Source: Sphaerisporangium krabiense (GTDB taxonomy: Bacteria; Actinomycetota; Actinomycetes; Streptosporangiales; Streptosporangiaceae). From it: 64,000 nt of DNA. The position numbers and the translations under genes are program-made. This document shows, piece by piece, positions 27,116 to 29,745 of this stretch. Position 1 is the first letter of the stretch. Each line of letters opens with the position of its first letter. Location of the stretch: the NCBI RefSeq assembly GCF_014200435.1, contig NZ_JACHBR010000002.1:114501-178500 (forward strand). The letters run 5' to 3'. The notes below the pieces were generated by a model. It saw nothing but the letters and a program-made list of their open reading frames with translations. It had not been told where the DNA came from and did not search any database.

Positions 27116-27132
27116 CGCATTGCCCGCTGCGC

Positions 27133-27138
27133 TACCCT
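27133..27138 (+). promoter_or_regulatory. -10 element of the leuS leader transcript
   Basis: TACCCT ends 6 nt before the leader ATG at 27145, which would make the leader mRNA leaderless, with its first base at or near the A of ATG. No clear -35 was found. Confidence 0.5.
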
Positions 27139-27144
27139 TGAGCT

Positions 27145-27192
27145 ATGCGTGGCAGGACCCTGCTTCTTGGCGGGCCGCGGCGACCGAGCTGA
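27145..27192 (+). CDS. Leucine-rich leader peptide of leuS
   Basis: This 15-codon ORF encodes MRGRTLLLGGPRRPS. Codons 6-8 are three consecutive leucines (CTG CTT CTT), and two of these are the rarer CTT in a genome that strongly favours CTG/CTC. It ends at TGA 27190-27192, inside the loop of the hairpin that follows, about 90 nt before leuS. This is the layout of an amino-acid attenuator, in which a ribosome starved of Leu-tRNA stalls at the Leu run. Leader peptides of leuA-type genes are known in actinobacteria. The assignment here rests on sequence layout alone. Confidence 0.7.
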   Translation: MRGRTLLLGGPRRPS

Positions 27193-27209
27193 AGACCGGT
27201 CGGCGCGGC
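27174..27209 (+). promoter_or_regulatory. Attenuator hairpin spanning the leader-peptide stop codon
   Basis: GCCGCG-G-CGACCG (27174-27186) pairs with CGGTCG-G-CGCGGC (27197-27209), giving twelve base pairs with one G-G mismatch. The 10-nt loop contains the leader stop codon. A ribosome on the leader peptide would cover its left arm. Confidence 0.6.
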
Positions 27210-27211
27210 TG

Positions 27212-27240
27212 CCCCTCGTGGACACGGGGGGTTTCTTTAT
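27212..27240 (+). terminator. Intrinsic terminator in the leuS leader
   Basis: CCCC-T-CGT pairs with ACG-GGGG (27212-27230) around a GGAC loop and is followed by TTTCTTTATT. It lies before leuS, not after a gene, as expected for an attenuator. Confidence 0.6.
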
Positions 27241-27282
27241 TGGTCCGGCCATCCACGCCGAGTCAACCGAGGGACATGGGCC

Positions 27283-29745
<2,463 letters not shown>

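Follow-up and report, generated by a model that had tools for sequence, protein, structure and literature searches.

Leaderless polycysteine attenuators are reportedly named in the title of a paper on mycobacteria. In Streptomyces lividans, leaderless leaders have been reported for leuS, leuA, ilvB, trpE, trpS, metN and thrS, and leuL2 of strain TK24 was described in 2021 as a leaderless peptide, MRAVRLLLSEPR, accompanied by a hairpin and a U stretch (PMC8079986). Classical attenuators of leuS had earlier been predicted in S. coelicolor and S. avermitilis by Seliverstov et al. (2005), who called it unknown how related cysteine and leucine operons are regulated, parts of the attenuator being missing there (PMC1262725). 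Two further actinobacterial systems control branched-chain amino acid biosynthesis: in the ilvBNC operon of Corynebacterium glutamicum a boundary trinucleotide, GCC, pairs into either the antiterminator or the terminator (PMC11857589), and in the ilvB1 attenuator of Mycobacterium tuberculosis, where the ribosome is taken to mask about 26 nt, a change of LVVI to AAAA abolishes induction (PMC13236596). An ilvB-II attenuator has likewise been described as two stems with alternative pairing (PMC10272879). Given the leaders reported in S. lividans, the view taken in the original prediction for the DNA described here, that it would be unusual for a leader peptide to be leaderless, is not supported (PMC8079986).

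The window, that is the whole stretch of 64,000 nucleotides of Sphaerisporangium krabiense that was analysed, carries such an element directly upstream of leuS (Table 1). The parts that had been read beforehand from the letters, namely TACCCT, an ATG, a 15-codon ORF with three Leu codons, a hairpin whose loop holds the stop codon, and a terminator, were all confirmed by sequence and folding. Six bases separate TACCCT from the start codon, the first hairpin (hereafter A) starts 4 nt after the Leu run, and the terminator stem-loop (hereafter T) and its tail end 41 bases upstream of the leuS start, the space between including GAGGGA, which we take to be the probable ribosome-binding motif of leuS. 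The product of leuS is a clear bacterial leucyl-tRNA synthetase, with a score of 938 bits to TIGR00396 at a cut-off of 548. The two consecutive CTT codons of the leader stand out because this codon is rare in the window: 35 ORFs selected by GC content hold 1607 Leu codons, of which 22 (1.4%) are CTT. Shuffled versions of the 141-nt stretch seldom fold as well as the original (z -2.84; 2/200 as good), and the same is true of the stretch of T alone (z -2.12; 8/200 as good).

Table 1. Predicted features of the leuS attenuator region, in positions of the window
Feature	Position	Strand	Basis or remark
-10 hexamer TACCCT	27133-27138	+	read from sequence
promoter, TGCG (27128-27131) plus TACCCT	27128..27138	+	no clear -35
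leader ORF MRGRTLLLGGPRRPS*, 15 codons, ATG at 27145	27145..27192	+	predicted leaderless, +1 = A of ATG
control codons CTG CTT CTT (Leu-Leu-Leu)	27160..27168	+	read from sequence
GGCGG, possible partner of CTGCC 27209-27213	27169..27173	+	would extend A into T
hairpin A, sensor and putative antiterminator	27173..27210	+	folding: 13 bp, one mismatch, -27.1 kcal/mol
leader stop codon TGA	27190..27192	+	within the loop of hairpin A
intrinsic terminator stem-loop T	27211..27232	+	folding: -14.8 kcal/mol; abuts A, gap 0 nt
U-tract TTTCTTTATT of terminator T	27232..27241	+	read from sequence, T-rich
probable leuS ribosome-binding site GAGGGA	27269..27274	+	read from sequence
leuS, leucyl-tRNA synthetase, 820 aa, GTG start	27283..29745	+	TIGR00396

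The LeuS query was matched in all 150 genomes of the family, that of S. krabiense included, a few of the matches being weak and to other synthetases or to fragments. The regions upstream of leuS were examined in 110 of these genomes, the window among them, of which 30 were automatic best matches and 80 were picked, mostly one per genus. A leader was scored where a start codon lies 4-10 nt after TAnnnT and opens an ORF of 7-35 codons with at least two consecutive Leu codons. This rule flagged 73 regions, two of which (L114 and L136) were judged false, so that 71 of the 110 regions have a leader with a run of Leu codons, a count of cases that are not independent because the elements share ancestry. 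L104, whose leader has just one Leu codon, was counted as negative. In 68 of the 71 leaders exactly 6 nt lie between TAnnnT and the start codon, a spacing that fits leaderless transcription, and CTT makes up 96 of the 203 codons of the conserved Leu runs, in a tally that includes the two false leaders. The Leu run, the leader and the terminator are conserved in relatives, so the outcome that would have refuted the original prediction on sequence grounds, a lack of conservation, did not occur; a leucine attenuator of leuS, the reading originally given to the locus, is still the best one.

The 39 regions without an accepted leader (37 by the rule and two judged false) include decayed copies. By eye, such copies were seen in L098, L101-L103, L105, L111-L114 and L121, where the start codon is lost (for example ATG to ACG or TCG), the U-tract is degenerate and parts of the hairpins remain; they look as if attenuation had been abandoned there. 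A sub-group of the family (L143, L145, L147, L149 and similar loci) has no leuS element, and several of its genomes retain a match before cimA, as in G086 (L143, L250) and G040 (L161, L251).

With 68 sequences, the window included, placed in register by their start codons, T-12, A-11, T-7 and G-14 were present in all of them, C-15 in 67 and T-17 and G-16 in 66. Their common motif, TGCGnTAnnCT, is a nearly invariant promoter without a clear -35, and the signals further upstream are weak (1.32 bits at -24 and 0.55 bits at -36). For the hairpins, an alignment (A1) of 54 non-redundant elements and 134 columns was made, these being 54 of 64 elements, left after L110, L135, L138, L140 and L159 and then near-copies had been dropped. 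In A and T taken together 97.8% of the cells are paired, against 41-55% in slid controls, which keep relatedness, and 10 of the 17 modelled pairs changed on both sides, none of 500 shuffles, which leave relatedness in place, being as good, in a set of elements that share descent. The pairs changed on both sides number 7 of 10 in A (97.4% of cells paired) and 3 of 7 in T (98.4%). The leader, the promoter spacing, A and T are beyond chance because they are conserved in relatives and covary, and the comparison, made at the level of sequence, shows a predicted leader, control codons, A, T and fixed spacings. The fold of the window also has a hairpin that would protect the Leu codons (CCTGC...GCGGG), but by eye it is not kept across the clades in A1.

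T-boxes bind tRNA directly. The T-box covariance model gave no match at the locus, which speaks against this reading; no Rfam family reached its gathering score anywhere in the window, and at the locus, with E allowed up to 5, the one match, on the opposite strand, was to an unrelated sRNA family (E 4.5). For want of a relevant Rfam match, we set aside T-box, riboswitch and known leader families.

Of 296 genomes of the class, 197 contain a match, at E 0.01 or better, to a covariance model (R1) built from the 54 family sequences. Run on 55 of 80 named contigs, it matched 22 at E 0.1 or better, among them contigs of Nonomuraea, Streptosporangium, Thermoactinospora, Actinomadura, Microlunatus and Arthrobacter; the other 33 of the 55, including Thermobifida, Nocardia, Kocuria and Microbacterium, gave no match, a few of these contigs lacking upstream DNA. 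At 90 examined R1 loci the downstream gene is leuS in 63, cimA in 18 and ilvB in 7, all of them branched-chain amino acid genes, though these shares are not a census because 60 class regions were picked from the listed matches and second matches were favoured. One locus (L276) ends at a contig edge, and at another (L238, minus strand) the element, with the leader MFTPRIII, precedes a 112-aa ORF (1060-1395) without an NCBIfam match, which by eye resembles an ACT-type regulatory protein. An actinobacterial-type leuS, 66% identical to that of the window, was also seen on JACEFY010000292.1 (L035), labelled Stenotrophomonas maltophilia, where it is probably contamination.

The control codons go with the gene. 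Leaders before leuS have Leu runs at nearly all loci, L277 having only Leu-Ile; leaders before cimA have at least two consecutive Ile codons in 18/18 (two or three), and those before ilvB have Leu-Val-Leu in 7/7. For ilvB, L232 was checked against NCBIfam and the other six were assigned by eye on translations; for cimA, L200 and L246 were checked against NCBIfam and the others by tblastn to L200. The genome of S. krabiense itself carries a second element, before cimA (citramalate synthase), at C1:3993384-3993493 (L200:1501-1614), with the leader MFYGLLIIGRRAG, hairpins A and T that abut with no gap, and a z of -5.62. Several cimA leaders bear, by eye, a similar TGTGGCAnACT. No cimA leader was seen in the leader table for S. 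lividans in PMC8079986, and no published cimA leader was found by title or abstract opening, which is weak evidence of absence since such a search covers little of the subscription literature.

These comparisons bear on a simple account of the locus, in which an ordinary terminator follows a divergent promoter and the leader and its Leu run are there by coincidence. Short ORFs are common and the ORF upstream of the leuS element is indeed divergent, but the leader, the rare CTT codons and the spacing are conserved across genera, and the same architecture recurs before cimA and ilvB, there with the amino acids that suit these genes, which makes coincidence scarcely believable. We hold instead, with good confidence, that the leuS element as a whole is best explained as a ribosome-mediated transcription attenuator, which, judging from its architecture, very probably turns leuS on when charged leucine tRNA is short.

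The proposed mechanism supposes a leaderless start in S. krabiense, a response to leucine, a direction of control and a way for A to counter T. The transcript would begin with the A of the leader's start codon, give or take one base, and the ribosome would begin on the leaderless leader. With charged Leu-tRNA available, it would pass CTG-CTT-CTT and reach the stop codon, where it would sit on the 5' arm of A and prevent A; T would then form, and transcription would end before leuS. When charged Leu-tRNA is short, the ribosome would stall at the Leu run, and A, beginning at its leading edge, would fold. The base of T, 0-1 nt behind the folded A, would then fail to close near RNA polymerase, and leuS would be transcribed. 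The base of T would have to close in the exit channel of the polymerase, where a helix without a spacer behind it may not fit, and the favoured proposal is that A hinders T throughout the class by steric or stacking abutment, possibly aided in this genome by A claiming the first three bases of T. The sign of control is drawn from this logic and from the ilvB1 attenuator of M. tuberculosis (PMC13236596). Tandem hairpins can, however, raise termination in M. smegmatis, which counts against abutment (PMC8355165).

The geometry was measured on 143 parsed elements, comprising 68 family leuS, 49 other leuS, 18 cimA, 7 ilvB and one other ORF. The family set is the 71 accepted leaders without L139 and L150, in which the rule found no end of a terminator, and without L140, whose end was misplaced; L159 failed a simpler hairpin parse (67 rows) and was included in the later parse of 68. 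From the 90 class loci were removed L203, L209, L211, L220, L223 and L275, whose element lies outside the kept stretch or is cut by the contig, six duplicates of family loci, and L234, L265 and L289, which have no terminator tail, leaving 75. A and T abut without a gap in 113 elements and are 1 nt apart in 24, 2 nt in 5 and 3 nt in one. Because folding programs tend to close gaps, random bases were inserted between A and T and the sequences refolded: a gap of 0-1 nt was then found in 204/429 folds with 4 bases inserted, 133/429 with 6, 55/429 with 8 and 26/429 with 12.

The control codons are mostly 4-5 nt from A. Ribosome footprint figures (10 nt) are E. coli toeprint values. With the ribosome edge defined as the last base covered when the first control codon is in the A site, at a 10-nt footprint, A starts 0 or 1 nt past the expected edge in 92 of the 99 elements whose control run has three codons. 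The length of A ranges from 25 to 74 nt and the distance from the stop codon to T from 16 to 55 nt, so that only the distances from the control codons to A and from A to T are nearly constant. With a ribosome at the stop codon, 5 nt or more of the 5' arm of A would be covered in 133/143 elements and fewer in 10, none at all in L278.

A stop-codon ribosome might also block T directly, in which case the distance from the stop codon to T would be decisive and the sign of control possibly the opposite. In the window this distance is 18 nt, close to the 17-18 nt between stop codon and terminator in an E. coli case whose efficiency ranged from about 0.12 to 0.8 by sequence (PMC4824070). Such occlusion is nevertheless very improbable, given the wide range of this distance beside two nearly fixed ones and a sign that would not suit a synthetase; starvation induces the ilvB1 attenuator of M. 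tuberculosis (PMC13236596).

The second alternative is a fast attenuator of the C. glutamicum ilvBNC type, in which A and T vie for the first bases of T. In the window GGCGG could pair with CTGCC and thereby take the first three bases of T, the boundary trinucleotide GCC (27211-27213), an extension that gains -6.5 kcal/mol before the 3' arm of T exists and costs about 2.5 kcal/mol against A and T together. The cost of opening the three base pairs at the base of T is lowest, among the 143 elements, in the window (2.5 kcal/mol) and in two loci of the same genus, L090 (2.5) and L093 (0.9); in this genus, then, A could also claim the first bases of T in the window and in two of five relatives, while the other three (L091, L092 and L094) show a cost of 5.6. 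If the base of T is held open, two or more of these three bases go to A in 25/68 family leuS and 18/49 other leuS elements, as against 1/18 cimA and 0/7 ilvB elements. Mutations in C. glutamicum back the overlap model there (PMC11857589).

Over all 143 elements, on the other hand, the possible extension of A into T averages 0.96 bp, compared with 0.92 bp when the 5' flanks are permuted and 1.12 bp with random flanks, and its energy gain is -1.80 kcal/mol against -2.1 to -2.5 in permutations. Permutation within groups gives 0.94 against 1.05 bp for family leuS, 0.50 against 0.60 for cimA and 0.43 against 0.64 for ilvB. Only the 49 other leuS elements depart from this, with 1.22 bp against 0.96 and none of 200 permutations as high, in a group that holds many near relatives; this excess counts against pure abutment, although the energy gain of the same group (-1.57) is weaker than the permuted value (-2.09), and in none of the four groups is the gain stronger than permuted. 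Opening the base of T costs a median of 7.0 kcal/mol in family leuS, 5.5 in other leuS, 6.4 in cimA and 8.9 in ilvB, and 3 kcal/mol or less in only 7/143. GGCGG, moreover, lies directly after the Leu run and should be under the stalled ribosome. Pairing of the 5' flank with the 5' arm of T was rejected by the permutations as a general feature and is kept as possible for the window. We consider base competition unlikely as the general mechanism, at something like a quarter of our belief, while the computation itself gives no sign that A stops T, because A and T coexist by free energy.

Two earlier statements about the window are thus qualified. The two hairpins had been described as non-overlapping, which is true of the best fold and agrees with a gap of 0-1 nt in 137/143 elements, but A of the window could pair into T; and a departure from classical attenuation had been suggested, which agrees with the want of energetic competition above chance in the 143 elements and is in tension with the pair excess of the 49 other leuS elements. 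What we propose, tentatively and with somewhat more doubt than belief, is an actinomycete class of attenuators in which A, formed at the edge of a stalled ribosome, blocks an abutting T with no need of base competition, serving leuS, cimA and ilvB and two diverged forms of LeuS.

The same type of attenuator stands before two deeply diverged lineages of LeuS (L206, L207, L216, L263 and others), and the family f20 has both (L206, L216). In a quick tree of 95 LeuS sequences, for which the program warns of long branches, 29 element-bearing ones, f18 included, are set apart by a fully supported branch 0.94 changes per column long; the type of the window falls on the opposite side, together with other bacterial phyla. 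Two lineages behind one leader suggest that the gene may have been replaced behind a kept leader or that the leader may have been acquired repeatedly.

What emerges is a quantitative rule: control codons mostly 4-5 nt from A, A 0-1 nt from T, and base sharing that is energetically not above chance. Such a rule turns the antitermination step into a single testable variable, the separation of A and T, and if abutment alone antiterminates, an intrinsic terminator would be controlled without base competition. No abutment rule was found by title or abstract opening, except for the adjacent, overlapping hairpins of C. glutamicum.

Compared with known systems, the window resembles the ilvBNC attenuator of C. 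glutamicum in its branched-chain control codons, in a leader that begins about one nucleotide away from the 5' end of the transcript there and is predicted to do much the same here, in the adjacency of antiterminator and terminator bases and in the GCC boundary trinucleotide, and differs from it in that three bases are common to the two C. glutamicum hairpins, beside which a third has been described (PMC11857589); in the parsed elements, by contrast, base sharing is energetically no stronger than chance. The ilvB1 attenuator of M. tuberculosis is alike in its uORF with branched-chain amino acid codons and in read-through upon starvation, which is experimentally supported there and proposed here, and unlike in its mutually exclusive structures and in serving a biosynthetic gene rather than a synthetase (PMC13236596). 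The actinobacterial ileS T-box elements share with the proposed switch an amino-acid-responsive control of a synthetase (PMC1262725), from which the element of the window differs in matching no Rfam family.

The closest counterpart is the leuS attenuator of Streptomyces, which has the same gene, a leaderless leader (as is predicted for the window), three Leu codons, a hairpin and a terminator with a U stretch (PMC8079986). Seliverstov et al. describe its hairpins as a classical antiterminator and terminator (PMC1262725). The published peptide MRAVRLLLSEPR is found letter for letter in 14 of 15 f18 loci, the fifteenth having G for E, which suggests that f18 is the Streptomycetaceae (Streptomyces and kin), and R1 scores the listed f18 matches at 67-86 bits, the best E being 6e-20; by this sequence evidence the element of the window is homologous to that of Streptomyces. 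The two differ in that the stop codon of leuL2 comes just after the first bases of A, whereas the leader of the window is longer and stops inside the loop of A, and in that the LeuS of the Streptomyces type and that of the window belong to different deep lineages. Since leuS attenuators are published for Streptomyces, the element of S. krabiense very probably represents a known kind of switch.
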